From IMG/VR virus record IMGVR_UViG_3300025598_001183, positions 1 to 41,103 of that record: 41,103 nucleotides of DNA; one strand, written 5' to 3'. Of the stretch, positions 9,857 through 35,076 are shown in pieces; the stretch's first letter is position 1; every line of letters begins with the position of its first letter. The notes below the pieces were generated by a model. The model was not told where the DNA came from. It saw only the letters and a list, made by a program, of their open reading frames with translations, and made no database searches. This stretch comes from a virus. The translations under genes and the position numbers were made by a program.

Positions 9857-10366
9857 ATGCGCCTAGATAAATTCGGTAATCCTATTTTTAATTCACAAGA
9901 TATATTCAAAATTCTCTATCAGGGAAAAGTTTCCAATCTCAAAGACATCACAGTAGACTATAGTGATGACATTGCTGAATTGGAAAAGATTGCTGGCTTC
10001 ACATTTCAAAGATTTAATGAACAATTAGAAGAAATCGATATTGCAGATTTTGATCAGGCATTACAAAGTGATTGGTTCATGCCTTCTGAATATAGAGATT
10101 TTGATGTAGAAGAATGGTGTTTAGAACGTTGCACTACACAAGAACAACAAAATAGAGTTATAGCAGAAATGGTTGCATATCGTGAACGAGGTATGATTCC
10201 GTTACTACAATGGACTAAGCATTTCGTGGATACTTGTAATGAAAATAATATTGTTTGGGGTGTTGGCAGAGGATCAAGCGTAGCTAGCTTTGTATTATTC
10301 TTACTAGGTGTACACCAAATAGATTCAGTCAAATATAATTTAGACTGGCAGGAATTCCTGAGATAA
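9857..10366 (+). CDS. Orphan fragment resembling the DnaE (Pol III alpha) palm
   Basis: The protein has 169 residues. The final ~80 resemble the start of the palm domain of bacterial replicative DNA polymerase III alpha. 'IPLLQWTKHFVDTCNENN' matches the helix before the motif. 'VWGVGRGSSVASFVLFLLG' parallels the DnaE 'GPGRGS.AGSLVAY.LGI' motif. 'IDSVKYNLDWQEFLR' parallels 'DPLKYNLLFERFL'. The protein stops exactly there, before the segment that carries the catalytic aspartates of DnaE, so it cannot be an active polymerase. Similar short proteins are, to my recollection, conserved in cyanomyoviruses. The first 90 residues (acidic, with 'DWFMPSEYRDFDVEEW') match nothing I know. It may bind DNA or nucleotides or act on the host replisome; function unknown. 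Confidence 0.6.
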   Translation: MRLDKFGNPIFNSQDIFKILYQGKVSNLKDITVDYSDDIAELEKIAGFTFQRFNEQLEEIDIADFDQALQSDWFMPSEYRDFDVEEWCLERCTTQEQQNRVIAEMVAYRERGMIPLLQWTKHFVDTCNENNIVWGVGRGSSVASFVLFLLGVHQIDSVKYNLDWQEFLR

Positions 10367-21236: not shown

Positions 21237-21244
21237 GATAAATA
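21237..21244 (+). promoter_or_regulatory. Candidate late promoter (GATAAATA)
   Basis: GATAAATA followed by CT is the closest match in the window to the T4 late element TATAAATA. It lies at the start of the intergenic region before the block of candidate head-internal proteins, 46 bases upstream of the first ATG. Confidence 0.5.
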
Positions 21245-21262
21245 CTCTAAATACAGAGTATT
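21241..21262 (+). repeat. Perfect 8-bp inverted repeat before the head-protein block
   Basis: AATACTCT and AGAGTATT flank the 6-base loop AAATAC. It overlaps the candidate late promoter and is not followed by a T-run, so it is not a standard terminator. It could be a transcript 5' hairpin protecting the message or a protein-binding site. Confidence 0.5.
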
Positions 21263-21289: not shown

Positions 21290-21661
21290 ATGCGAATCCA
21301 AGAATTATTAGAAAACGCGAATTTCAAACAAGAAGATTTCGTTAAAAAAACAGGCGACAAGGAAGAAATAGATTTCGATTTGCCTGACGATCTAGTACAC
21401 TTCATGCACAATGACGATCATGCCTATCGTCGTCATATCTACCCCGTAATTTCACAATGCACTATACTAATTAAGAAAAAGAAACCAACACAAAGTAAAA
21501 TGTTTGCAGAAGCCATCAAAGAGTGCTATAAAATCTATTCTAAAAAATTCCCTATACGAGCATTGCCTGACGAGTTAGATGAAGAACAGCTAGAAGAAAC
21601 TTGTAATAAAATACATGATGAATTTATCAAGCATGTAAAAGAAGGCAAATACAAGGATTAA
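21290..21661 (+). CDS. Putative head-associated protein, unknown function
   Basis: The protein has 123 residues. Its first residues MRIQELLENANF fit the pattern M-x-x-(K/R/Q)-(E/D)-(F/L)-(L/I) shared by several neighbours and resembling the T4 internal-protein capsid-targeting start (MKTYQEFIAE). The rest is charged and helical ('DDLVHFMHNDDHAYRRHIYP' etc.) with no known motif. It opens the block of candidate head-internal proteins after a late-type promoter and a hairpin. The stop is followed by the next ATG one base later. Head targeting is inferred only from the N-terminus. Confidence 0.5.
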   Translation: MRIQELLENANFKQEDFVKKTGDKEEIDFDLPDDLVHFMHNDDHAYRRHIYPVISQCTILIKKKKPTQSKMFAEAIKECYKIYSKKFPIRALPDELDEEQLEETCNKIHDEFIKHVKEGKYKD

Positions 21662-21662
21662 T

Positions 21663-23519
21663 ATGCTGTTACGTGAATTATTCCTTAATGTTAGGAAACC
21701 TATTAATGAAGGCGGCAATATATGGCCAGAGTCTGAAAACTTTGATCAAGCTATTGCTCAACATCTTGCGCATGAGACCAACAGATATCTAAGCGGTGTC
21801 AAAACAAGTGTACATTTAATCGGTAGTGCCGCAACTCCTACTCCCGGAAAGATGAGCGGAGATTTAGACGTCATGGTAGATCTTAATCAACTGATGCAAC
21901 AGTTTGGTACTAAAGACGGAAAAACTACTCGTGTTGAATTAGAAAAATATTTGCAATCAAAAGGACTACAAACTAAAAAAACCGGAGTGACTGTACACAT
22001 TTTGTTACCGTACAAGAACAAGTTTTATCAGGTTGATATTAAGGCAGTCGGTAATGCTGAGAAGGTACATTTATTCCACCATCATAACATACCTGCTGGC
22101 AGCCCTTATAAAGGTGTCCACAAACAAATGATGATGAACGCACTAGCAAGTAGTCAGGGTATGCTATGGAGTCCAGACGAAGGACTGTATGCTCGCAACG
22201 AACTAGGTAAAAAAGCTGACTTTATCAGTGATGACCTGAATGTAATTGCTAAAAAGTTATTGGGTAAACATGCCAAAGGATCTGATTTAGGCAGTGTAGA
22301 AAGTATACTAGCCGCTATTCCAGATGAAGCCCGTCGTAATGAAATTTTCCAACAGGCCAGCAGTGGTGCAAGTTGGCAAGCAGTTAGCCCGACTCCAATA
22401 ACTGAAGCGGCAGCTCCGACAGTTGGCCGTAAATATCAACACGTCGAAGACCTAGTGTTTACCGGTATTCCTAGTAAAGGCATACCTGCTGGATCCAAGG
22501 CAGGCATACATGCCATAAGAATATTAAAGACCATGTCCCATGTTGGCAAAGGTATAGAATTAAAATGGGACGGCAGTCCAGTAATATATTGGGGTCGAGA
22601 CGAGAATGGAGTATTCCACATGTATCCTAAAAATGCTTGGGATTATATGAAACGTGGTACTACTCATACCAAGAGTGGTGTTACTACCATGATGAATGAT
22701 CCAGATGATGTTGCTATGTTTATTTTAGGTACAGGAAAAACAGAGCCTGGACAAGAAGAACAACGCAGAGCATTTGCTCAAGGGCTTGCAGATTTATGGC
22801 CGTTGTTTGAAAGTATTAGTCCCAAAAAAGGTTTTATTGAAGGCGGTATATTATTCAGTCCACTGAAGCCAGCCGAACTAAATCCCGACACTAACGAATA
22901 TGATTTTCAACCTAATATAACTAAATTCCATATACCAGCTAAAAGCAAATTAGGTATTAGAATTGGAAAAGCACAAATGATGGTAGCCGCTACAGGTTAC
23001 TATACACATATCGGTGCTGACGAAACAAGATATCCTGAAGCTGAAAAATTATCAAATGCTCAAGTAATTGTGCAAGGTACAACATACACTGAAAATGCAG
23101 CCAAAGTTGACCAGGAAGGAATAAAACATGCAGAAACATTTATTAATCAAAATAAAGCCGCTATCGATAGTTTTGTTGCCGGTCAACCTGGTTTAAGTAA
23201 ACCTGGCGATGTACTCTATACTTTCTATAATCAACATTTACGTATTGCTGGAGTAAAACAAAAATTCCAAGAATGGGCTATGGGTAAACTCAGTAATACA
23301 CAAGCACAAAAAATTCTAAGTCATCCAGGACTGGATGCAATACTAACTGCGGTAGAATTATTGTCTCATGAAAAGATGAAAATTATTTCAGTATTAAGTA
23401 GTGGCACTCATCAAAATATTAGACAAACTAATCCTGAAGGATATGTATATCAAGATCCTGATACCGGACAGTTTGTCAAAGCTATCGACCAAGCCAATTG
23501 GGCTCCAAGGAAAGACTAA
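21663..23519 (+). CDS. Pol-beta nucleotidyltransferase fused to a ligase-like KWDG domain
   Basis: The protein has 618 residues. The N-terminal domain (~40-180) has the Pol-beta superfamily signature: G54-S55 followed after 11 residues by D67-x-D69 ('GKMSGDLDVMVD') and a third Asp, D125, in 'YQVDIKAVG'. The C-terminal region has 'IELKWDGSPVIYWGRD' with K301-x-D303-G304, the motif I lysine of ATP-dependent ligases and capping enzymes, plus 'GFIEGGILFSP' that may be a later ligase motif. Similar KWDG-type proteins occur in cyanomyoviruses. The start 'MLLRELFLNVRKPINEGG' resembles a capsid-targeting sequence with a gp21-type cleavage site (IN-E/G). It might be a virion-packaged RNA or DNA end-repair enzyme; activity is not proven. 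Confidence 0.65.
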   Translation: MLLRELFLNVRKPINEGGNIWPESENFDQAIAQHLAHETNRYLSGVKTSVHLIGSAATPTPGKMSGDLDVMVDLNQLMQQFGTKDGKTTRVELEKYLQSKGLQTKKTGVTVHILLPYKNKFYQVDIKAVGNAEKVHLFHHHNIPAGSPYKGVHKQMMMNALASSQGMLWSPDEGLYARNELGKKADFISDDLNVIAKKLLGKHAKGSDLGSVESILAAIPDEARRNEIFQQASSGASWQAVSPTPITEAAAPTVGRKYQHVEDLVFTGIPSKGIPAGSKAGIHAIRILKTMSHVGKGIELKWDGSPVIYWGRDENGVFHMYPKNAWDYMKRGTTHTKSGVTTMMNDPDDVAMFILGTGKTEPGQEEQRRAFAQGLADLWPLFESISPKKGFIEGGILFSPLKPAELNPDTNEYDFQPNITKFHIPAKSKLGIRIGKAQMMVAATGYYTHIGADETRYPEAEKLSNAQVIVQGTTYTENAAKVDQEGIKHAETFINQNKAAIDSFVAGQPGLSKPGDVLYTFYNQHLRIAGVKQKFQEWAMGKLSNTQAQKILSHPGLDAILTAVELLSHEKMKIISVLSSGTHQNIRQTNPEGYVYQDPDTGQFVKAIDQANWAPRKD

Positions 23520-24808
23520 TGTTATTACGTGAATTTCTTAATCGTACCGGAGAAGGCAAGGCCGCAGTAGTTGGTTGGGGGCGAGGCATGGGTCACAAAG
23601 GACACATGTTCTTGGCCAGTAGTGTCCTTACACAGGCAAAAGATACAGGTGCAGATCCTTATTTTGTTGTTAGCAGAACTATTGGCAAGGACGATCCAAT
23701 CACTCCAGAAGAAAAATTATCAATCTACAAACGAGTATTTCCCAAGCACGGACATATTTTTCATACTGCTACAGACGAAATGCCAGATTTAACTCGTGTG
23801 TTGCAACAATTAAGTAAACATGGTTATACTGATGTTACAGTTGTTGTAGGTGCAGATCAAGTCAAGGCATTGAGCTACGTAAAACAATATAATGGACATC
23901 CAGATAAAGCAGGGAATATCCCATACAGTTTCAACAGCCTAAATGTTATTGCACGTCAAGAAACAAATGATCCTAGCAAAGAACAAGAAGGTCCACGTGC
24001 CACTCCAATGCGAGCTATACTGCAAGATCCCAATGCTACAGAAGAAGAAAAGTTTGCGGCATGGCGTGATGCTATGAGTCCAGAACTCAGTGATGACGAA
24101 GTACGTGATTTAATGCACAAAGCACAACAGCGCATGAGTGATCCTTCATTTGGTAAGACACCGAAAAAACCTAAAAAAGAAAAAGTTGCAGATGAAAGCA
24201 TGATGGGTTTTTTGGCAAAAACTACTAAGCCTGCTGTTAAAAAAACATCAACTAGTGCAGAAGAAATGCGAAAGTATTTTGAAAAAGAAAAAGCTAACGA
24301 ATTACCTAAAGTTGTCAGTGATTTAGATAAGAAAAAAATCCAACGAGTACATACTAGATCAGATGAAAATTCGATTAAATATGCTAATAAACTAATAAGA
24401 GAAATGAGAGCAAAAGAATTTACAAGACAACATCTGTCAGAACTTAGCGTTAAGCCAGCTATGCCCATACATCCAGAACTTGATCAACACGGTCAGGGTG
24501 CGTATCTAGCACGTGACGTTGGAGGGTACGATCGTGTGTACCACATGAATCGTCTATGGATGGCTATGGCCATGGCTGACGGAAAATCATCCGGAAAAAT
24601 TCCAGGCGCAAATGCATCCAGTTGGAGTGAGAAATATAATACTATACACCCTTTTAGTGATGCAGATGATTTGAAAATACAAGCGGCCCTAAAAACTGTG
24701 CCTAGTGATCACGGACATATTGCAAAAGATCACAAGAGCAAAGAACATGATGATGTTAATAAAACTAGCCCTGTGGCTAAACCTAAACGTAACAAGTACG
24801 GTGTATAA
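23519..24808 (+). CDS. Cytidylyltransferase-like protein fused to a second phage domain
   Basis: The start is the ATG overlapping the upstream stop (TAATG); an earlier in-frame codon lies inside the previous gene and is rejected. The protein has 429 residues. 'GRGMGHKGHMFL' contains the HxGH motif of nucleotidyltransferases (H26, H29) and 'VVVGADQV' and 'GPRATPMRAIL' fit the rest of the fold, as in cyanophage cytidylyltransferase-like proteins. Their substrate is unknown. From about residue 296 (base 24404) a second domain begins with 'MRAKEF', matching the start of the following gene, and both end in the same 13-residue tail (SPVAKPKRNKYGV). This suggests fusion of a paralogue. It has a capsid-targeting-like N-terminus (MLLREFLNR). 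Confidence 0.65.
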   Translation: MLLREFLNRTGEGKAAVVGWGRGMGHKGHMFLASSVLTQAKDTGADPYFVVSRTIGKDDPITPEEKLSIYKRVFPKHGHIFHTATDEMPDLTRVLQQLSKHGYTDVTVVVGADQVKALSYVKQYNGHPDKAGNIPYSFNSLNVIARQETNDPSKEQEGPRATPMRAILQDPNATEEEKFAAWRDAMSPELSDDEVRDLMHKAQQRMSDPSFGKTPKKPKKEKVADESMMGFLAKTTKPAVKKTSTSAEEMRKYFEKEKANELPKVVSDLDKKKIQRVHTRSDENSIKYANKLIREMRAKEFTRQHLSELSVKPAMPIHPELDQHGQGAYLARDVGGYDRVYHMNRLWMAMAMADGKSSGKIPGANASSWSEKYNTIHPFSDADDLKIQAALKTVPSDHGHIAKDHKSKEHDDVNKTSPVAKPKRNKYGV

Positions 24809-24810
24809 TG
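24767..24810 (+). repeat. Direct repeat copy 1 encoding a shared C-terminal tail
   Basis: A 44-base segment encodes 'SPVAKPKRNKYGV', the stop and the overlapping ATG of the next gene. It recurs at 25297-25340 with two mismatches. Identity over the stop and start junction points to duplication of a whole gene end. Confidence 0.8.
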
Positions 24811-25338
24811 AGAGCTAAAGAATTTATTACAGAATCAGAAAAGGCCGTCTTGCTACGTAAAACTATTGCTCAATCTGAAAAAGAGGGTAAGAAAACTCAG
24901 CCAGCTGTTCCTTATAAAGCCAAGCATTATAAATCAGGTAGATACGGTGTGCCAACTGGCGTAGATCCACACGATGTACACAGTCAAACACAAGGCCCAG
25001 ATGAATATGGTAGTCTAAGGGGAGAAGTTCCATTGGAAGCGCAGGCCGCTATGCCAGGAGCATTTAGTATAGAAGATTTGCCAAGCGACTTCTATGGAGT
25101 GTACAGATTAGGGCTAGGACTTGCGGCAGGTGATCGTAATATTGCCGCTGCCGATAATTTTGGTAAGCACCCATTTATTATGCCGTTTGCACCTGAAGAG
25201 CATGCCAAGTTTGAAAAAGAAATTAAACGTCAAGGTCACAAGACCAAGTTGAGAACAACTAAAGACAGTTTAGAACTGTCAACTAACAATACTGTCAGCC
25301 CGGTGGCTAAACCAAAACGTAACAAGTACGGTGTATAA
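24808..25338 (+). CDS. Putative head-associated protein, paralogue of preceding C-terminal domain
   Basis: The protein has 176 residues. It starts MRAKEFITESEK, close to the T4 capsid-targeting motif (EFI.E) with IT-E/S as a potential prohead-protease site. The middle ('DFYGVYRLGLGLAAGDRN', then 'HPFIMPFAPEEHAKFEKEIK') parallels 'YDRVYHMNRLWMAMAMADG' and 'NTIHPFSDADDLKIQAAL' in the preceding gene, a fold pattern I also recall from cyanophage proteins. The C-terminal 13 residues are identical to those of its upstream neighbour. It overlaps both neighbours by one base (TAATG). Its function is unknown; a virion role is inferred. Confidence 0.55.
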   Translation: MRAKEFITESEKAVLLRKTIAQSEKEGKKTQPAVPYKAKHYKSGRYGVPTGVDPHDVHSQTQGPDEYGSLRGEVPLEAQAAMPGAFSIEDLPSDFYGVYRLGLGLAAGDRNIAAADNFGKHPFIMPFAPEEHAKFEKEIKRQGHKTKLRTTKDSLELSTNNTVSPVAKPKRNKYGV

Positions 25339-25340
25339 TG
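25297..25340 (+). repeat. Direct repeat copy 2 encoding a shared C-terminal tail
   Basis: Second copy of the 44-base segment at 24767-24810 (42/44 identical). It ends the 176-residue gene and overlaps the start of the Dps-like gene. Confidence 0.8.
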
Positions 25341-25778
25341 GAACACGACAAATATCATCTAGCATTAAAAACAGCATTTGCTTCTGAGTTCAGCTTTTAT
25401 CTTAAAAGTCATAACTTCCATTGGAATGTTGAAGGACCATTGTTTGGTCAATTACACGAATTATTTGAAAGAATTTATACAGAAGTATATGGTAGTATCG
25501 ATACGTTTGCCGAACACCTACGTGCTTTACAAATATACACACCTGCCAGTTTACAAAAATTCAGTATGTTGACCACTGTAGAAGACGAGAATCATGTTCC
25601 AGATTGGAGTGGCATGCTGGAAGAATTATTATTAGATAGCGACCGCATGGCAGAAATATTCCGTATTACATTTGATATGGCAGAAGCACACGGTGATCAT
25701 GGACTAAGTAACTTTTTAGCCGATCGTCAAGATGCACATAAAAAACACAGTTGGATGCTACGAGCGAGTTTGAAATAA
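25338..25778 (+). CDS. dps: Dps-like ferritin protein
   Basis: The protein has 146 residues. 'YLKSHNFHWNVEGPLFGQLH' and the following 'ELFERIYTEVYGSIDTFAEH' match the ferroxidase-centre signature of Dps (H-x-x-H-W-N-V-x-G, then D/E and H). The C-terminal 'DRQDAHKKHSWMLRASLK' matches the Dps end. Dps proteins form 12-mers that oxidise iron and bind or protect DNA. Length is close to the usual ~155-170. It lacks the Lys-rich N-terminal tail used by E. coli Dps to bind DNA. It sits inside the head-protein block, so it might protect packaged or incoming phage DNA from oxidation. That is inference. Confidence 0.75.
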   Translation: MEHDKYHLALKTAFASEFSFYLKSHNFHWNVEGPLFGQLHELFERIYTEVYGSIDTFAEHLRALQIYTPASLQKFSMLTTVEDENHVPDWSGMLEELLLDSDRMAEIFRITFDMAEAHGDHGLSNFLADRQDAHKKHSWMLRASLK

Positions 25779-26008
25779 TGGATGAACTAGCACGTCTTAA
25801 GAAGTTAGCAGGCCTTAATGAATTTAAGGGTCTGCAACCTTATGGCGGAAGCAATATCAGTATAACTGGTACAGAGAAACGAATTATAGAACGTGAACAA
25901 AACATACAACCTGGAACTGAAGAATGGTTCAAATTGTGGTTTAGTTTACCTAAATTTATGAATGGAGAACGTGCTGTAGGCACAGGCTTTAGAGGAATTA
26001 AAAAATGA
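25778..26008 (+). CDS. Small conserved phage protein
   Basis: The start is the ATG overlapping the Dps-like stop (TAATG), giving 76 residues; an ATG 27 bases earlier would lie inside the Dps-like gene. The first residues 'MDELARLKKLAGLNEF' match a short helical motif I have seen at the ends of other aquatic T4-like phage proteins. A related pattern occurs twice at the end of the 532-residue protein downstream ('EIDRLRQLTGRL', 'EVDQIRALTKRL'). The motif may be a common docking helix. The stop overlaps the next gene (ATGA). Function unknown. Confidence 0.55.
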   Translation: MDELARLKKLAGLNEFKGLQPYGGSNISITGTEKRIIEREQNIQPGTEEWFKLWFSLPKFMNGERAVGTGFRGIKK

Positions 26009-27033
26009 AAATAAAAGATCTAGTGGGATATACTCCTGGGCAACTGATTGCCGAAAGTTACTACGAGTCTAAAATGCTCAAGGAAGAAGAATCTGATTAC
26101 TACAGAGACTATCAAAATGGGTTAATTTCTTATGAAGAATATAAAGATCTAGTTAGACAATTCCAAGGAAGATCGGGACATCGTCATCATTCTTCTAACA
26201 ACAGTCGACCTGTAATGACTGGTATGTATTTTTATAATGTCAAACCTGGTGAGGAAGATGCTGCCGACTTGATGGGAGTTAAAAAGACCAAGAGTGGTAA
26301 ATGGGCTCTGGTTCAATACAATACTAGCGGTCACACATTTAATTGGAACAAACAAAGAGCTGATCAAAGATTTGGTACTGGTAAGTTCTGGTCACCTAAA
26401 AAAGAAAGTGTATCGGAGGTTATATCCGAAACTGCTAATCCTGTAAGTAAAAAACAAGACTGGAAACAGTCTGTTTTAGATAAACACCCTGATGCAACTT
26501 TTAAGGATCCAAGAGATCCACGCAAAATTCCAAAAGATGGATCATATCATATAGTAGCAATGGTAGATGGCAAAGTTGTAGATGAAATTAAAGGTAATCT
26601 ATTCACTGATAAGAAACGTATGTCAGAATCAAATGCTGTAAATAGCAAGAAAGAAGCTCCTAAACCACGAAACTTTGTTGCTAAGAACGCCATTAACAGT
26701 GGCGCTGGCGCACATAAAGACAAAAAGAAAGCGGCCAAACAGGGCGAAGTAAAACATAAAAAACAATTAGAACTAGCAGAAACAGCCACAGCAGGTGCTA
26801 CTAGTGCCGCTAATATCGGTACTGTGGACAATCCTAGCATTAGTCCAGGAAAAGCACGTGGTAAGAAAAGCTATATAGGTAGTCCAGGACATAGTGGTAA
26901 AAAGGCGCCACCGCAACCCATGGTTGTACAACCTAAAAAGTCAGACGGAACCGCAGTTAACGGACTTGATATAAAAGGTTCTAGCCTGTTTGGTGGGCCA
27001 AAGAACACAGCCAAAGTAATCAAAAGACGCTAA
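26005..27033 (+). CDS. Putative head-associated basic protein
   Basis: The protein has 342 residues. It starts MKIKDLVGY, fitting the shared N-terminal pattern, with 'QLIAESYYES' offering an IA-E/S prohead-protease-like site. The N-terminal half is folded and the C-terminal half (~200 on) is very Lys/Ala/Gly-rich ('KKEAPKPRNFVAKNAINSG', 'AGAHKDKKKAAKQGEVKHKK'), consistent with a DNA-binding or disordered tail. 'VKPGEEDAADLMGVKKTKS' and 'KWALVQYNTSGHTFNWNKQ' are structured segments without known family. It overlaps the small upstream gene by 4 bases. A basic internal head protein that helps neutralise packaged DNA is a reasonable guess. Confidence 0.5.
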   Translation: MKIKDLVGYTPGQLIAESYYESKMLKEEESDYYRDYQNGLISYEEYKDLVRQFQGRSGHRHHSSNNSRPVMTGMYFYNVKPGEEDAADLMGVKKTKSGKWALVQYNTSGHTFNWNKQRADQRFGTGKFWSPKKESVSEVISETANPVSKKQDWKQSVLDKHPDATFKDPRDPRKIPKDGSYHIVAMVDGKVVDEIKGNLFTDKKRMSESNAVNSKKEAPKPRNFVAKNAINSGAGAHKDKKKAAKQGEVKHKKQLELAETATAGATSAANIGTVDNPSISPGKARGKKSYIGSPGHSGKKAPPQPMVVQPKKSDGTAVNGLDIKGSSLFGGPKNTAKVIKRR

Positions 27034-27036
27034 ATA
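27029..27036 (+). promoter_or_regulatory. Candidate late promoter (GCTAAATA)
   Basis: GCTAAATA overlaps the stop of the upstream gene and lies 24 bases before the next ATG. A TATA stretch follows, then ribosome binding site CGGAG at 27048-27052. Confidence 0.4.
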
Positions 27037-27059
27037 TATAAAGATAACGGAGTATACTC

Positions 27060-28658
27060 ATGCCAGCAAATTTAGATAATCTAGACCCAGAAATGGATCA
27101 ATCAGCAGAAATGGATGCACCAGCGGACGAACCGATGGATGCAGAACCTGCTGGTGACGTAATTGGAGCACACGGACAAACAGATCGCGAAGGCGCAATG
27201 GCCAAGGCTGATTTGTTCAAGCTAGCCAACTATGCTCACAAACTGTATGAAAAATTACAGGACGATGATCAATTAGAAGCATGGGTACAGGCTAAAATTA
27301 CCAAAGCTGCCGATTACATGGCCAGTGTATATCATTATTTAGAATACGAAATGAAGTTTAGTGAATACGGTCATCATTTGGATAACAGCGATACACTAAG
27401 CGAAAGCCAAAAACGTGTATTAAAATTCCGTCTCAACGAAGCTAAAGAAAAGATGAAAGAACTTAAAAAGAGCCAAGCTGAGAAAATGAAAGAAAAGAAA
27501 GTTGAAGAAGGTATTTTGAGTGGTGGACATGCTGATTGTCATCACTGCGGTGGTACTGGTAAAGTATACGAAGAGCCAAAACAAGTTCCTAGTCACGTTA
27601 AATCTAAAGTTAAAAGCTACAACCGTATGGTTAATGCAGTTAAGGCCGCACACAACCGTATGGAAGAAGAAGATGTAGAAGTAGACGAAGAATTTAACGA
27701 CAAATCAAAAGTTGGTGACAGCTACAAAACTAAACGTGGCGGTACAGTAATTAAAACTGAACTAGGTCGTAAGCACATAAAAGGCGATTACGATGACGAA
27801 GACTACAAAGCTCCTCCAAGTCCTCCAAAGAGTCATGCTAAGGCACGTTCAGCCGCTGACAAAGCAGGTGACAAAGCCGCTGACAAAGCTCAGGAAAAAG
27901 ACAGCAAAGACTGGGAAAAGAAATATCCTGGTACAGTAACTAAAGTAGTTGCTGGTAAGAAAGTTGATCCGAACGCTCCAAAGAAAAAGAAGTCGGAAGA
28001 CGATGACCTAGATGAGAATATGTATGGTCAAGGTGTTTACGAAGCCAAATCTAAAATGGCTAAGAAAGACTACGACCAAGACGGCAAAATTGAAAGTGGT
28101 AAAGACGAGTACTTAGGTAGCCGTATCCGTGCCGCTAAGAAAGCTGGCAAGTTAAAAGAAGCTGTAAAAATGTGCAAAGAGTGCGAACTGAAAATGTCAG
28201 AGTGTTCTTGCAAGCCAATGAAAGAAAGTGCAAAGCCAAGCGCAGGTCTAAGCAAAGCTAAGAAGTCTGCTACAGTTAAGAAAGCTAAAGCCGGTGGCGA
28301 TATTGGTAAGCCAGGTAAAGGTTTTGCTAAACTAGCTAAAAAAGCTGGTGGCGGTGAGAAAGGTGAGAAGATTGCCGCAGCCGCTATGTGGAAGAACATC
28401 AAAGAAACTACTGCATACATTGCTGAAAAAGCCAAAGCTACTAAGCCAGACTATATTGATTTAGACAAAGATGGCGACAAATCAGAGCCGATGAAAAAAG
28501 CGGCCGCTGATAAAAAGAAAGAAACAGTTAAAGAGTCATCTGAGATCGATCGTTTACGTCAGTTAACTGGTCGTTTGAATCAAGCTGAAAAACCAGCACT
28601 AGTTGAAAACCGCGAGGTAGATCAAATTCGTGCATTGACAAAGCGTCTACTAGGATAA
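27060..28658 (+). CDS. Lys/Asp/Glu-rich head- or scaffold-like protein with EF-hand-like loops
   Basis: The protein has 532 residues. An acidic start is followed by long charged helices, with 'CHHCGGTGKV' (~160, a CxxCxGxG zinc-knuckle-like motif as in DnaJ zinc fingers) and a second Cys cluster 'CKECELKMSECSCK' (~377). Two calcium-binding-loop-like motifs follow: 'DYDQDGKIESGKDEY' (~338-352) and 'DLDKDGDKSEPMKKA' (~466-480). The C-terminus repeats 'EIDRLRQLTGRL' and 'EVDQIRALTKRL'. Such patches recur in cyanophage virion proteins to my recollection. The composition is that of a flexible scaffold or internal head protein. No enzymatic function is evident. It does not carry the MxxxEFL N-terminus of its neighbours. 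Confidence 0.55.
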   Translation: MPANLDNLDPEMDQSAEMDAPADEPMDAEPAGDVIGAHGQTDREGAMAKADLFKLANYAHKLYEKLQDDDQLEAWVQAKITKAADYMASVYHYLEYEMKFSEYGHHLDNSDTLSESQKRVLKFRLNEAKEKMKELKKSQAEKMKEKKVEEGILSGGHADCHHCGGTGKVYEEPKQVPSHVKSKVKSYNRMVNAVKAAHNRMEEEDVEVDEEFNDKSKVGDSYKTKRGGTVIKTELGRKHIKGDYDDEDYKAPPSPPKSHAKARSAADKAGDKAADKAQEKDSKDWEKKYPGTVTKVVAGKKVDPNAPKKKKSEDDDLDENMYGQGVYEAKSKMAKKDYDQDGKIESGKDEYLGSRIRAAKKAGKLKEAVKMCKECELKMSECSCKPMKESAKPSAGLSKAKKSATVKKAKAGGDIGKPGKGFAKLAKKAGGGEKGEKIAAAAMWKNIKETTAYIAEKAKATKPDYIDLDKDGDKSEPMKKAAADKKKETVKESSEIDRLRQLTGRLNQAEKPALVENREVDQIRALTKRLLG

Positions 28659-28662
28659 TCCT

Positions 28663-29619
28663 ATGGACATGAAGCGCATACTACAGGCGATGGATGGGGC
28701 ATCTTCAAAGCCTGTAGAAGGCGCCAATAGTATGGCTAAGTTTTTATCTATTGTAGACAAAAACGCCAATGTGCAAATTCTGCAAGAAGGTAAAAGTCCA
28801 CACAAGGTAACTTTGCCTGTTCAAATGGCCATGCAACACTATCAACAAAAAGAAGAAAAGCCACTAGCCCGTGTGGGCAGAACAAGTGTTGTTGGTAAAT
28901 ATTTTCACGATGTTGAACAAGAATTTGAAGAACAACAAACAAACAAACGTCAATTGATCAATCAGTATGCTAGTACCATTGCTGAACGTGTCATGATGAA
29001 AGAGTCTATACAAAAAGACCCCATTGAACAAATTGCCAAACGTAAAGTATTACAATCATTAGATTCCTCTCTATACAAAAATCATAAAAAGAAAAAGAAT
29101 GTAAAAACATTTGCCGAAAATGAAATTCCAGATCACAGTATGGGATTTACCGGAGGTGCAGGTCCAGGCATTATGCCAAATGAAGAAGTTACAGAAACAC
29201 CAATAGACTTTAACAAAGATGATCCAATGGGCAGTGAAATACATAGTCATCAAGGTGTAAATCCTGCCAGTATTAGAACACGCATGATGCGAGCTAGCAG
29301 ACAAATGGCTGAACTAGCTGAAATGGCCAAGAGCGATGATCCGCGCATATGGCAACATCTTGCTAACTTATTTCCAGAACTAGCCATGAACATTGAACAA
29401 GTTAAACACGGCATTGAACAGCTAGCAGAAATTAAAAGTAAGGGCGGACGTAGATCAGCTAATATACCTAGCGGATTAGATAAACCTAATCCAATCAAAG
29501 AAGCCAATGCTAAAAAGAAAACATTGAAGAATTCAAACCCATGTTGGAAGGATTATCATCCCGTGGGGACTAAAAAGAAAGGCGGACGCACAGTGCCCAA
29601 TTGTGTACCCAACGAATAA
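28663..29619 (+). CDS. Putative head-associated protein with NC.P tail motif
   Basis: The protein has 318 residues. The start MDMKRILQAMD loosely fits the shared N-terminal pattern, and 'QILQEGKSP' (LQ-E/G) is a prohead-protease-like site. Most of it is charged helix. Near residue 190-260 are 'RMMRASRQMAELAEMAKSDD' and 'LFPELAMNIEQVKHGIEQLA'. The end 'NPCWKDYHPVGTKKKGGR' followed by 'TVPNCVPNE' is a small Cys/Lys/Gly module that I recall at the ends of other aquatic phage proteins, where two Cys may bind metal. Function unknown; late expression and head location are inferred from context. Confidence 0.5.
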   Translation: MDMKRILQAMDGASSKPVEGANSMAKFLSIVDKNANVQILQEGKSPHKVTLPVQMAMQHYQQKEEKPLARVGRTSVVGKYFHDVEQEFEEQQTNKRQLINQYASTIAERVMMKESIQKDPIEQIAKRKVLQSLDSSLYKNHKKKKNVKTFAENEIPDHSMGFTGGAGPGIMPNEEVTETPIDFNKDDPMGSEIHSHQGVNPASIRTRMMRASRQMAELAEMAKSDDPRIWQHLANLFPELAMNIEQVKHGIEQLAEIKSKGGRRSANIPSGLDKPNPIKEANAKKKTLKNSNPCWKDYHPVGTKKKGGRTVPNCVPNE

Positions 29620-29631
29620 GAGGAAAACAAC

Positions 29632-31971
29632 ATGAATATTAGAGACTTATTAAATAGACTTGAAACATTAGAAGAAGGCTTGACCATGAAAGATGTCAAT
29701 GCCGCTGTTCAAGGTATGACCAGTGATCAAGATCGTGCAACAGCACTGGCAGGCCTGGCAACACAAAACCAACTAGGCGGATTATACGATCCAGTATCTG
29801 GTTATTTTGTCAGTTCAAGTGGACAAATTAGTTCTACAGCAGACAAGAACACAGACTTCAAATTGTCTAACATGGGGTTAATTCCTAGTAATGCTCATAC
29901 ATCAACCATGTTAGGTAGAATATTTGGTACTTCTGGTAAAGACTACGATGCTCAACTAAGAGCTCAAAGCGGTAAAGTTAATGCCGATAGAACTAGTCAA
30001 GAAGTTAATCAAGCAAACTTAAAGAAACTATTCACACTAGTTGATCAACTAAAAGCAGTTAAGCCAGCGCCTAGTCAAGACACTGCGCCAGCAACTATTA
30101 CAAAACCAGAAGTCAAACCTGATCCAACTAAACCAGAAGTCAAACCTGATCCAACTAAACCAGAAGTCAAACCTGGACCACATCCAACGGGTGCCGATAC
30201 TAGTTTAACTCCTGGTCAAAAATTAGGTATTGGTGCTGGCATTGGTGCAGGTGCATTGGGCGGAGCCGCACTGGCTAGAAAAGCAGGTATGGGTGCATTA
30301 GGTCAATTAGGCGCAGGTGCCGTTGGTGGTGCCGTTGGCGGTTTAGGTGCTAGAGCAATGCAAAACGAAGGCATCGAATTCAAGTCAAGTATTGCTCAGT
30401 CTTTAACAGAAAGTTTTGGTTATGACTACGAAGGTGAACAGTTAGACGAATACAGCATGAATCAATTTGGCCAAGATGCAGGTGATGCACTTCGCGGTGC
30501 GGCCAATGGTGCAACATTAGGAACATACGATAATATTGCCGCTGGTGTTCAAAGTGCATTTGGTAAAGATACATACAAACAAGCACTTGCAAAACAAACA
30601 GCCGCAAGCAAAGAAGCAGAAACACGTAGCCCATGGTTATACAATGCAGGTAATATTGCTGGTTCATTTGCCGCTCCAATTCCTGGAGGCGCTATTGCTG
30701 CCGGTGTAGGAAAATTAGGTGGTGGTATGCTGGCAAAAGGTGCGGCCGCTCTTGGTACTAACCTTGCCGCACAATATGGTGTTGATAAACTTAAACAAAA
30801 CGTTGATACAAAGACATTGGGTTACGATCCAAGCAAGTACCCAACTACCAAAGCAGAAATTATGGCTTTCCAAAAAGCCAACGGTTTAGGTGTAGACGGT
30901 ATCATTGGACCTAAGACTAAAGCAGTATTAACTAAAATGGGACTTGCTCCAGAAGCGGCTCCTACAGTCGCAGAAAGTATTAAATCATTACAAAATCGTT
31001 TGGCCATGATTGAATCTGGTGCTGATGACTATCATGTATGGTTAATGGAAGATGGTACTGTTGTTGATCAGCAAGGCACGATTGTTACAGATACTGCTAC
31101 ATTAGAATCAATCAAATGGACATCAGCAGTTAGTCAAGAATTATTAAATGAAATTAGTTTTAGTGGAATTGGTAAAGGTCTTGCTAATATCGGTAAAAAC
31201 TTTAGTGGTGGACTTGGTGGCAAAGCCGCACAACAAATGCGCAAACTTACTCCTGCTGGTAAATCAGTAAATGCAGGATTTGCTCCAGGTGCTAAAATAG
31301 CAAACAAAGTAGGCGGAGCTATTGCTAGAAATCCAGGTAAGACTGCATTAGGTGCGGCGGCACTTGGAGCAGGCGGAATGTATGCGGCTAACTCATTAGC
31401 CGGTGAACCTGGAACAGATACCATGCCAGCAACCGGTGGCGGTGGTGGCGGTGGTGGTGGCGGTGGTGGTGGCGGTGGTGGTGGCGGGGGCTCTAGCGCA
31501 GATCAAGCTGGAGGAACTACAGGACAAGCAGGAGAAACTCCAGCAACTACAACTCCAGCAACTACAACTCCAGCAGGTCCAAGTCCAGAACAACAAGCTA
31601 TTATTGATCAAATTAGAGAAGTAATGGGTCAATTGGCAGATGTTGAAGACGTAGGTATTCAAAGAGCTCTTTCTGATGCGCAGGCAACAATTGATGCTGT
31701 ATCAAAACAAGCACCAGCAAAACCAGAAGCAGGTGGTGGTGGAATGAAACCTCCCCCAGCAACAGGTGCTACAGGTAACAGTGCTACGCCGCCGGCTGTA
31801 CAAAAATCAATGGATGCTGTAGCAGGTGCTCCTACTCAAGGCAAAGATGCTAAAGGCAATCCATTATATACTGACAAGTCCGGTATTACATATGATGCTA
31901 GCGGCAAGTCGTTAACTCCAGAAAGTGCAGAAGCAGAACTAGCTCGTTGGCTTAAAATAGCTCGCGGTTAA
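29632..31971 (+). CDS. Giant putative ejection/internal head protein with peptidoglycan-binding domain
   Basis: The protein has 779 residues. The start MNIRDLLNRLETLEEGLTMK has the shared head-targeting pattern and an LE-E/G cleavage-like site. A 'TKPEVKPDP' triple repeat (~158-183) is followed by glycine-zipper-like hydrophobic segments ('GIGAGIGAGALGGAALARKA', 'GAGAVGGAVGGLGARAM', ~200-245) and more hydrophobic runs (~345-385). A peptidoglycan-binding-1-like domain follows at ~408-444 ('YPTTKAEIMAFQKANGLGVD', 'GIIGPKTKAVLTKMG'). Another hydrophobic stretch is at ~560-590, then a run of 19 Gly (~602-620) and a disordered Pro/Thr/Gln tail. Membrane-active segments plus wall-binding suggest injection with the DNA. 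Ribosome binding site AGAGGAAA lies before the ATG. Confidence 0.6.
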   Translation: MNIRDLLNRLETLEEGLTMKDVNAAVQGMTSDQDRATALAGLATQNQLGGLYDPVSGYFVSSSGQISSTADKNTDFKLSNMGLIPSNAHTSTMLGRIFGTSGKDYDAQLRAQSGKVNADRTSQEVNQANLKKLFTLVDQLKAVKPAPSQDTAPATITKPEVKPDPTKPEVKPDPTKPEVKPGPHPTGADTSLTPGQKLGIGAGIGAGALGGAALARKAGMGALGQLGAGAVGGAVGGLGARAMQNEGIEFKSSIAQSLTESFGYDYEGEQLDEYSMNQFGQDAGDALRGAANGATLGTYDNIAAGVQSAFGKDTYKQALAKQTAASKEAETRSPWLYNAGNIAGSFAAPIPGGAIAAGVGKLGGGMLAKGAAALGTNLAAQYGVDKLKQNVDTKTLGYDPSKYPTTKAEIMAFQKANGLGVDGIIGPKTKAVLTKMGLAPEAAPTVAESIKSLQNRLAMIESGADDYHVWLMEDGTVVDQQGTIVTDTATLESIKWTSAVSQELLNEISFSGIGKGLANIGKNFSGGLGGKAAQQMRKLTPAGKSVNAGFAPGAKIANKVGGAIARNPGKTALGAAALGAGGMYAANSLAGEPGTDTMPATGGGGGGGGGGGGGGGGGGGSSADQAGGTTGQAGETPATTTPATTTPAGPSPEQQAIIDQIREVMGQLADVEDVGIQRALSDAQATIDAVSKQAPAKPEAGGGGMKPPPATGATGNSATPPAVQKSMDAVAGAPTQGKDAKGNPLYTDKSGITYDASGKSLTPESAEAELARWLKIARG
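30103..30179 (+). repeat. 27-base tandem repeats encoding KPEVKPDPT units
   Basis: Two perfect 27-base copies (30103-30129 and 30130-30156) are followed by a partial third copy to 30175-30179. They encode a Lys/Pro/Glu-rich spacer. Identical codons suggest recent slippage expansion. Confidence 0.85.
31435..31491 (+). repeat. 19-codon poly-glycine tract (GGT/GGC microsatellite)
   Basis: The tract is a run of GGT/GGC codons with a 12-base period of one GGC and three GGT, encoding 19 consecutive glycines. It is in frame and ends with GGG-GGC before Ser. It is a likely hypervariable flexible linker. Confidence 0.85.
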
Positions 31972-32406: not shown

Positions 32407-35076
32407 ATGTCTTATGTAGACGCATGGTTTGACCGCGAGAATGATATCATTAAAGTGGTTGAACGCAATAAGAAAGGTGAAAGGGAATTTAGAGATATTC
32501 CTGTACGCCACACATTTTATGTAAAAGATCCCCGAGGAAAATTTACGTCAATCTACGGTGAAGAATTAACCCGTATCGTTTGTAAAAACACAAAAGAACT
32601 GCGCAAAGAACAGGCCATTAATAGTGGTAAGACTCTATACGAGTCAGACATTAATCCTATTTTTGTTACACTAAGCGAACACTATATCAATCAAGATGCT
32701 CCAAAATTAAATGTAGCGTTTTTCGATATTGAGGTAGACTTTGATCCAGAACGTGGCTATGCTAGTCCAGACGATGCATTCATGCCAATTACTGCGATTG
32801 CCGTCTACCTACAGTGGCTAGAGACTATGGTATGTTTGGCAATCCCTCCTAAAAAAGTCAGCATGGAGGAGGCCAAGGAAATGGTCAAGGACTTTCCTAA
32901 CACATATCTGTTTGATAACGAAGCAGACTTGTTGGACATGTTCTTGGACTTGATCAAAGATGCAGATGTTATCAGTGGTTGGAATAGTGAAGGATTTGAT
33001 ATTCCCTATACTACAAATCGCGTTACAAAAGTTCTAAGCAAAGAGGACACAAGACGGTTCTGTTTGTTTGACCAATTGCCTAAACGTCGTGAATACGAAA
33101 AATATGGTCGTACTAGTACAACTTATGACTACATTGGTCGTGTGCATTTAGATTATCTTGAACTGTACCGCAAGTACACATATGAAGAACGCCATACATA
33201 TAGATTAGATGCCATTGCAGAATATGAGCTAGGCAAACGTAAAACACAATACGAAGGCACACTAGATCAACTATACAACAACGACTTCCGTACATTTGTA
33301 GAATACAACATTAATGACTGTAAACTACTGGACGACCTGGACAAAAAATTAAAATTCATGGATCTTGCCAACACACTGGCACATGAAAATACAGTACTAC
33401 TACAAACTACAATGGGTGCGGTTGCTGTAACTGAGCAGGCTATTATTAACGAGGCACATCGCAGAGGTTTTCAAGTTCCTAATCGTACCAAGATGAGTGA
33501 ACGTGAAGACAATGAAGGTGCGGCTGGTGCGTATGTGGCGTATCCTAAAGAAGGATTACAAGATTGGGTAGGATCGTTGGATATTAACAGTCTATATCCG
33601 TCAGCTATTCGTGCGCTTAACATGGGGCCAGAAACTATTATCGGTCAGTTGCGTCAAACAATGACTGAAGAATATATAGAATTACAAATGGCCAAAGGCA
33701 AATCATTTGCGGCCGCTTGGGAAGGTGTCTTTGGGTCCTTAGAATACACAGCAGTAATGAATCAAGAAATCGGCACAGACATTGCTATCGACTGGGAAGA
33801 TGGATCTAGTGATGTACTCAGTGCCGCCGAAGTATATAGATTAATATTTGAAAGCAATCAGCCTTGGATGCTTTCAAGTAACGGTACTATCTTCACCCAT
33901 GAAAAAGAAGGTATTATTCCAGGGCTACTAAAACGCTGGTATGCTGAACGTAAAGAGATGCAGGCCAAACTAAAGGAGGCTATAAATGCTGGAAACAAAA
34001 TTGAAGAAGAATACTGGGATAAGCGACAACTTGTTAAGAAGATTAATCTTAACAGCCTGTATGGTGCTATTCTTAATAGCGGCTGTAGATTCTTTGATAA
34101 ACGAATCGGACAATCAACAACGCTGGTCGGTCGTCAAATCGCAAAACATATGGCGAGTAAAGTAAATGAGATCATTACCGGAGAGTATGATCACGTAGGA
34201 AAGGCAGTAATTTATGGTGACACTGATAGTTGTTATTTTAGTGCTTATCGCACTCTACAGAAGGACATTGAGGCCGGACGAATTCCCTGGACGAAAGAAA
34301 CAGTAATTCAACTTTATGATACAATTGGCGAAGAAGTAAATCAAACATTCCCACAGTTTATGTTAGATAGTTTTCATTGTCCTAAGACACGTGGAGAAGT
34401 TATCAAAGCAGGTCGCGAAATTGTTGGCAGTAAGAGTTTGTTTATTACTAAGAAACGTTATGCTGTATTGTATTACGACAAAGAAGGCAAACGTGCTGAC
34501 ATAGATGGAAAAGCTGGCAAGATAAAGGCCATGGGCTTGGATCTTAAACGCAGTGATACGCCAGAATTTATTCAAGACTTTTTAAGTGAAGTTCTTGAAA
34601 TGGTTCTCATGGGTAAGCCTGAACAAGAAGTTTTGGATCATATAAGTCAATTCCGTATTAAATTCAAAGGTCGACCTGGTTGGGAAAAAGGTTCGCCAAA
34701 ACGTGCCAACAACATTACTGATTATCAAGCCAAGGAAGCCAAAGCTGGTAAAACAAATATGCCTGGTCATGTTAGAGCAAGTATTAATTGGAACACGCTC
34801 AAGCGTATGTACAATGACAAGTATTCTATGGGTATTACAGACGGTGCTAAAGTTATTGTTTGTAAACTCAAACCTAATCCGTTAGGTTTTACATCAGTTG
34901 CTTATCCAGTGGATGAACTGAGATTACCGCAGTGGTTCAAGGATTTGCCTTTTGATCATGCAGAGATGGAAGCTACCATCATTGATAAAAAGTTAGATAA
35001 CTTGATTGGTGTTCTTAAATGGGACCTCAACAGCACTGAAGAAAAAAATACATTCAACAGTTTATTTGAGTTTTAA
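32407..35076 (+). CDS. 43: Family B DNA polymerase, gp43-like
   Basis: The protein has 889 residues, near the 898 of T4 gp43. Proofreading exonuclease motifs are FFDIEVDF (D107, E109), 'SGWNSEGFDIPY' and 'YNINDCKLLDDL' (Y-x3-D). The palm carries 'LDINSLYPS' (D392) as motif A, 'KKINLNSLYG' (N549 in motif B) and 'YGDTDS' (Y603-S608) as motif C. All catalytic residues are present, so it should be an active, proofreading replicative polymerase working with the gp45-like clamp. Its start has GGAG ten bases upstream and two hairpins before that, suggesting autoregulation as in T4. The next gene's ATG follows one base after the stop. Confidence 0.95.
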   Translation: MSYVDAWFDRENDIIKVVERNKKGEREFRDIPVRHTFYVKDPRGKFTSIYGEELTRIVCKNTKELRKEQAINSGKTLYESDINPIFVTLSEHYINQDAPKLNVAFFDIEVDFDPERGYASPDDAFMPITAIAVYLQWLETMVCLAIPPKKVSMEEAKEMVKDFPNTYLFDNEADLLDMFLDLIKDADVISGWNSEGFDIPYTTNRVTKVLSKEDTRRFCLFDQLPKRREYEKYGRTSTTYDYIGRVHLDYLELYRKYTYEERHTYRLDAIAEYELGKRKTQYEGTLDQLYNNDFRTFVEYNINDCKLLDDLDKKLKFMDLANTLAHENTVLLQTTMGAVAVTEQAIINEAHRRGFQVPNRTKMSEREDNEGAAGAYVAYPKEGLQDWVGSLDINSLYPSAIRALNMGPETIIGQLRQTMTEEYIELQMAKGKSFAAAWEGVFGSLEYTAVMNQEIGTDIAIDWEDGSSDVLSAAEVYRLIFESNQPWMLSSNGTIFTHEKEGIIPGLLKRWYAERKEMQAKLKEAINAGNKIEEEYWDKRQLVKKINLNSLYGAILNSGCRFFDKRIGQSTTLVGRQIAKHMASKVNEIITGEYDHVGKAVIYGDTDSCYFSAYRTLQKDIEAGRIPWTKETVIQLYDTIGEEVNQTFPQFMLDSFHCPKTRGEVIKAGREIVGSKSLFITKKRYAVLYYDKEGKRADIDGKAGKIKAMGLDLKRSDTPEFIQDFLSEVLEMVLMGKPEQEVLDHISQFRIKFKGRPGWEKGSPKRANNITDYQAKEAKAGKTNMPGHVRASINWNTLKRMYNDKYSMGITDGAKVIVCKLKPNPLGFTSVAYPVDELRLPQWFKDLPFDHAEMEATIIDKKLDNLIGVLKWDLNSTEEKNTFNSLFEF

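Follow-up and report, generated by a model that had tools for sequence, protein, structure and literature searches.

Why should proteins of different families, encoded side by side in one phage, start with the same short sequence? The question arises in a 41,103-nt virus record, IMGVR_UViG_3300025598_001183, analysed here at its full length (the window), which is a fragment of a freshwater phage of the T4 superfamily. A sequence-only reading had singled out the genes at 21290-31971 (the block) as encoding candidates for proteins that are packed into the head and processed there. This proposal is supported by the protease, gp23 and scaffold genes of relatives, by invariant sites in disordered segments, by a late promoter, and by homologues of the NMNAT-like protein in virions. 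Judging from the sequences, the block is probably a late operon of head-packaged, protease-processed and probably injected proteins, i.e., a system like that of the T4 internal proteins.

Head-assembly genes and probable late expression

A 345-kb relative is colinear with most of the window, so the phage of the window may, by extension, be a jumbo phage. Relatives of 345, 161 and 98 kb all encode a prohead protease of the gp21 family (Peptidase_S77). In the 345-kb relative this gene adjoins those of the gp23 capsid protein (2.9e-98) and of a gp22-like coiled scaffold; both were identified in that genome and read in the 161-kb relative, at loci outside the window fragment. The capsid protein of the 345-kb relative contains YLME/SPTAGATSAG (slashes mark known or predicted cuts), and T4 gp23 has FLTE/AEIGG...AGQTSGAV at the equivalent place. 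Hence, [LI]-x-E followed by a small residue is a plausible cut site in this clade. Searches of phage records with the DNA of the block, and with the protein of ORF 21663, gave no match, and PADLOC found no defence family.

The late promoter of T4 is TATAAATA. The element ATAAATAC (GATAAATAC in context; 21238..21245, + strand), 52 nt before the first start of the block, was read as a T4-type late promoter because of its likeness to this sequence. The sequence NATAAATA precedes the first gene at all 55 of the orthologous loci. Of the 28 copies of ATAAATAC in the 345-kb relative, 22 have a start on the same strand no more than 70 nt downstream (median of 5% for permuted 8-mers), and many stand before apparent structural genes. 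Used as a search word, exact TATAAATA was uninformative, and ATAAATAC was informative through its position, not its count. Given this element and the abutting same-strand genes that follow it, the block looks like one late operon.

A shared N-terminal leader

The starts quoted in the sequence-only reading are all encoded: MRIQELLEN (21290), MLLRELF (21663), MLLREFL (23519), MRAKEFITE (24808), MKIKDLV (26005) and MNIRDLL (29632), together with MDMKRIL at 28663, rightly called loose. The strict pattern M-x-x-[KRQ]-[ED]-[FL]-[LIV] occurs in 5 of the 10 proteins of the block, on a hand-made list of its ORFs, and in none of the 29 proteins encoded in the rest of the window (Fisher, 4e-4). Admitting F at the last position raises the count to 6/10 (Fisher, 6e-5). 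Both P values are post hoc because the pattern was derived from this window. The Dps-like 25338, 25778 and 27060 have no leader. Shuffling of N-termini, computed on a mechanical ORF list that omits 24808, leads one to expect about 0.03 leaders in the block, and the base rate of the pattern after internal methionines in the relatives is 3/2580. When every ATG with a Shine-Dalgarno sequence was scanned on both strands, the heptad-type leaders fell inside the block in 4/4 cases in the window, 6/7 in the 161-kb relative, 4/4 in the 98-kb relative and 4/9 in the 345-kb relative. Leaders persist across divergent orthologues, which are not independent trials and whose gene calls are mechanical in the relatives.

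The starts had been likened to that of a T4 internal protein, MKTYQEFIAE. The spacing Phi-x-[ED]-[FL]-Phi is indeed kept, but the leader of the block is shorter than that of T4 by one residue (AKEFITE, against YQEFIAE in T4). When a position-specific matrix was built from the T4 internal proteins and the leaders of cyanophages, the proteins of the block, taken together, did not stand out under it (P 0.08-0.22). In T4 IPIII, targeting depends on residues 4 and 7, and processing on residues 8 and 10 (PMC9026906). The hydrophobic residues of the leader are found at i and i+3 in six proteins of the block (I3/L6, L3/F6, A3/F6, L3/L6), one residue earlier than the 4/7 of T4. On these comparisons, the block leader and the T4-form leader are related, non-identical forms.

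The T4 proteins IPI, IPII and IPIII similarly combine unrelated mature bodies with a short N-terminal leader whose hydrophobic positions are i and i+3 (PMC9026906, PMC3012670); they also share [IL]xE/A, at residue 10 or 19 in T4 (IPI MKTFKEFT...ITE/A). In the block, by contrast, six or more families encoded in a single late operon carry the leader, which is also found inside fused proteins and has passengers that include enzyme-like domains. A closer match is T4 gp24, in which INELLRE resembles IKELLTE and IQELLE, although gp24 is a capsid vertex protein and not an internal protein. Its cleavage is given in the record annotation, and we take the exact site to be MAKINELLRE/S.

Predicted protease sites

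All the E/G and E/S sites quoted in the earlier reading are present, i.e., INE/GG, ITE/S, LIAE/S, LEE/G and LQE/G. After the leader, [IL]xE followed by a small residue is found in 21663, 24808 (copy of the window), 26005, 28663 (LQE/G, 28780-28791, + strand) and 29632 (LEE/G, 29668-29679, + strand). Among orthologues, the Glu of [ILV]-x-E/[GAS] is invariant and the neighbouring residues vary. The site of 28663 is present in 15/15 orthologues. In sets of distinct N-termini that were selected for their start pattern and not solely for homology, it is present in 11/11, that of 29632 in 9/9 of its leader type, and [LVIM]xE within about 20 residues in 19/20 for the leader type of 26005, whose set includes other families. 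The leader of 21290 ends in LLE/N, and P1' is often N in its family; in orthologues of 24808, P1' is often H, R or Q. The N-terminus of ORF 23519 contains no [LIV]xE and no clear cut site.

Five sites in families of the block (two in 21663, two in 27060, one in 28663) combine an invariant Glu with a P2 position that takes four or more types of residue, and none does in six control families. The controls (shuffling, internal methionines, start scan and control families) led us to reject a chance origin of the pattern of leaders and sites. The leader could also be a docking peptide for some other late complex, or a translation-friendly helix, with coincidental E/G and E/S sites. MKIKELL-like starts do occur on a few proteins beyond the block, and the packaging use of such leaders is demonstrated in T4 only. 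Yet this explanation accounts poorly for an invariant Glu beside a free P2, in disordered linkers, that is absent from control families, or for a T4-form leader on an experimentally found virion protein of cyanophage S-SCSM1 (see below), and we regard it as very improbable.

Passenger domains and possibly modular leaders

The first gene encodes a 123-aa protein with leader MRIQELLE/N (21290..21661, + strand). In its family, residues 2-8 are conserved at 90% and the following 12 at only 59%; profile searches of families with this protein gave no usable match.

The second gene (21663..23519, + strand) encodes a 618-aa protein composed of the leader MLLRELF, a cut site, a nucleotidyltransferase, another cut site and a DUF6267 domain. 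Site 1 (INE/G, residues 14-17, 21702..21713, + strand) has the form [LIV]xE[GAS] in 28/28 orthologues, and in 30/30 of a second set, with variants such as INE/G, LLE/G, IFE/G, VVE/A and LKE/S; the stretch between leader and site varies in sequence and length. Site 2 (ITE/A, residues 246-249, 22398..22409, + strand) lies in the inter-domain linker. It has the form [LIV]xE[GASE] in 28/28 orthologues, two of them with E/E, and [LIVM]xE[GAS] in 28/31 of the second set, with seven residue types at P2 (variants ITE/A, INE/A, LAE/A, LLE/A and VSE/A). AlphaFold2 placed both sites in low-confidence disordered segments (9-17, pLDDT <50, and 240-258).

The earlier reading also held that the passengers include enzymes, and enzyme-like domains were found (nucleotidyltransferase, NMNAT-like). 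Residues 20-213 of ORF 21663 (21720..22301, + strand) form a polymerase-beta-like nucleotidyltransferase domain: structural alignment (VIA-align) with DNA polymerases beta and lambda covered 166-187 residues at a Z of about 12, and the motif GS...DxD is present as GSAAT...GDLDVMVD, with G54, S55, D67 and D69 invariant. The match to NTP_transf_2 was below cut-off, and a sequence search of solved structures with this ORF gave nothing credible. The DUF6267 domain (22419..23516, + strand; PF19782, 2.7e-9) has invariant KWDGSP and PEGY. Its fold search gave no significant match; ATP-dependent ligases recurred at Z 3.6-4.7, the best being T4 DNA ligase (Z 4.7), below the reliability level of the tool. 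The domain is possibly ligase-like, KWDGSP being reminiscent of KxDG ligases. That these two domains might repair or modify nucleic acids at an early stage is a conjecture.

The third gene (23519..24808, + strand) encodes an NMNAT/cytidylyltransferase-like protein (phrog_3041, 3e-23) with leader MLLREFL and the HxGH motif as HKGH. Its residues 296-309 contain an internal copy of the leader, MRAKEFTRQHLSEL (24404..24445, + strand), and orthologues bear MRAQEFMRKQLAE/G, MRAKEFVAE/G and similar sequences at internal positions 229-866. The fourth gene encodes a 176-aa protein (24808..25338, + strand) with leader MRAKEFITE/S, whose C-terminus SPVAKPKRNKYGV is common to 23519. The same element, MRA[KQ]EF then [ILV]xE, opens ORF 24808 and its relatives and is also found internally in cytidylyltransferase ORFs and longer fusions, mostly within this range of positions. 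The internal copies and the inter-domain site of 21663 suggest that fused packaged proteins are separated in the head. The leader and cut site may thus be a portable module, placed at N-termini and between domains, such that fused enzymes would reach the head as polyproteins, to be split there by the protease before injection; from the sequences, we give this extension slightly less than an even chance. T4 Alt resembles ORF 21663 as proposed here, since it is an ejected protein with more than one gp21 site (ITE-6, LTE-619; PMC5694885). Unlike in Alt, no ADP-ribosyltransferase was found in the block.

The Dps/ferritin-like protein (25338..25778, + strand; PF00210, 2.5e-21; phrog_3636) is conceivably a packaged DNA-binding or iron-handling protein. 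It is followed by a 76-aa protein, MDELARLKKLAGLNE (25778..26008, + strand), which resembles the scaffold C-terminus DIRKLAGL, and by a 342-aa protein (26005..27033, + strand) with leader MKIKDLV then LIAE/S, in which DUF7230 is embedded (match below cut-off). ORF 27060 (27060..28658, + strand) encodes a 532-aa low-complexity protein with predicted cut sites at E115, E127, E150 and E492, conserved in 12-14 of 14 orthologues. The 318-aa protein with the loose leader MDMKRIL (28663..29619, + strand) ends in a module NPCW...VPNCVP, found in phrog_4359/9737. Phage proteins that have nothing else in common also contain this module, NPCWxxY...KKKGGRxVPNCVP, as does S-PM2p145 in L102. The last gene encodes a 779-aa protein with leader MNIRDLL, a peptidoglycan-binding domain (PF01471, 2.7e-7) and glycine-rich hydrophobic stretches (29632..31971, + strand), a domain make-up that would suit an ejected, envelope-acting protein. 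It contains a run of 19 glycines (residues 602-620, 31435-31491 of the window).

Some of these features might fit a purely structural role, in which the proteins enter the prohead core and are processed, but serve assembly only and are mostly degraded or expelled instead of injected. The T4 core proteins gp22, gp67 and gp68 are cut into short fragments (PMC5694885), and ORF 27060 combines low complexity and several predicted sites with a C-terminus, VDQIRALTKRLLG, that resembles the scaffold sequence VDIRRLAGLKF. The folded enzyme-like domains of 21663 and 23519, with their conserved motifs, and the occurrence of NMNAT-like relatives in finished virions speak against it. We therefore consider an assembly-only role unlikely, and favour packaging with subsequent injection.

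A motif [IVL]xxRxL(A/T)(G/K)(L/R) is common to the scaffold C-terminus DNIIDIRKLAGLKI (L071 10127-11218), to ORF 25778 and to the C-terminus of the 27060 family, where it is invariant. This motif, defined post hoc, is possibly a second core-binding signal.

Homologues in cyanophage virions

The NMNAT-like family of ORF 23519 was detected by mass spectrometry in virions of S-SM1 (PMC3037559), of S-SCSM1 and S-CBWM1 (PMC9602691), and of S-CREM2 and S-SZBM1 (PMC10665884). ORF 23519 matches the detected S-SCSM1 protein (blastp, 9e-12) and is homologous to the cyanophage family T4-GC190 (tblastn). In S-PM2 and Syn33, a KWDGAP gene of DUF6267 type stands directly upstream of T4-GC190, as 21663 does here; in those phages it is a gene of its own, whereas in the window the domain is fused to a nucleotidyltransferase. 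The T4-GC190 leaders, where present, have the exact T4 spacing: S-SCSM1 MKSFLQFLKEA, Syn33 MKKFSAFLTEA, S-SM2 MKSFFQFLSEA, P-SSM2 MKSFSQFLTET and S-H34 MKGFSNFLIEA (T4 reference MKTYQEFIAEA). The members of S-PM2 and ACG-2014e lack a T4-form leader, and leaderless homologues exist in K64-1, PA5oct and UB. In PA5oct the NMNAT-like gene has no ESI-MS/MS note, whereas its immediate neighbours have one. This one example is in keeping with the idea of a leader.

In the genome of S-SCSM1, two ORFs stand out with a T4-form leader: the first encodes the NMNAT-like protein, and the other, of 106 aa, is flanked by virion genes. The genes adjoining the former are also annotated as virion proteins. Most virion proteins of this cassette have no leader, which is thus not necessary there. 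A 33-aa module of ORF 27060 is 64% identical to gp280 of S-SCSM1, an annotated virion protein. Another virion protein of this phage, gp279 (L104 8808-9017), ends in RTFKEFLEYIE, like the start MKTFKEFT of T4 IPI, and this end is a possible C-terminal copy of the targeting sequence.

The authors of the S-CREM2 study caution about co-purification with virions (PMC10665884), and the proteins might indeed be abundant late products that merely accompany the particles. However, members of the NMNAT-like family have been detected in the virions of five or more cyanophages, and co-purification leaves the conserved cut sites unexplained; we consider it extremely unlikely. Mass spectrometry repeatedly finds enzymes in cyanophage virions, and authors have left undecided whether these are cargo or contaminants. 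The T4-form leader and prohead-protease sites of these families offer a mechanism and predict exact mature N-termini. Judged by title and abstract, none of the 15 papers that use the term "capsid targeting sequence" in the open-access library searched dealt with cyanophages or freshwater jumbo phages.

The 345-kb relative also encodes candidates away from the block. One protein has an exact T4-form leader, MKSFKNYLTE/S, behind ATAAATAC and weakly matches a virion-structural PHROG (L068 11765-12280, minus strand). Its gene lies near the likely terminase gene. A 136-aa protein starting with MKIKELLTE/S (L083 16907-17314, minus strand) contains HELVH, weakly matches a metallo-protease PHROG and is a candidate packaged protease of this phage.

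Proposed mechanism

In the packaging model, the leader Phi-x-[ED]-[FL]-Phi would bind the core of the scaffold, as that of T4 IPIII does, and so recruit the products to the assembling prohead. The gp21-family protease would then cut after the Glu of [ILV]-x-E/[GAS] and free the leader, with an additional cut between domains in ORF 21663 and probably also in 23519. The mature nucleotidyltransferase, DUF6267, NMNAT-like, peptidoglycan-binding and small proteins would be retained in the head, and may be ejected with the DNA to act, presumably as enzymes, at the start of infection. The ejection proteins of the jumbo phages phiKZ and SPN3US are comparable head proteins, which a prohead protease cleaves behind a Glu (PMC5694885). 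The site is A-x-E in SPN3US and the phiKZ-type protease belongs to family S80, whereas the clade of the window has S77 and [ILV]-x-E. The combination of leader and site provides a sequence rule to search for injected proteins in uncultured T4-like phages.

Outside the block, the window encodes a stand-alone 169-aa protein (9857-10366) that partially matches a DNA polymerase III alpha domain (PF07733, 4e-11; phrog_11127). The same phage has a DNA polymerase-like ORF at 32407.
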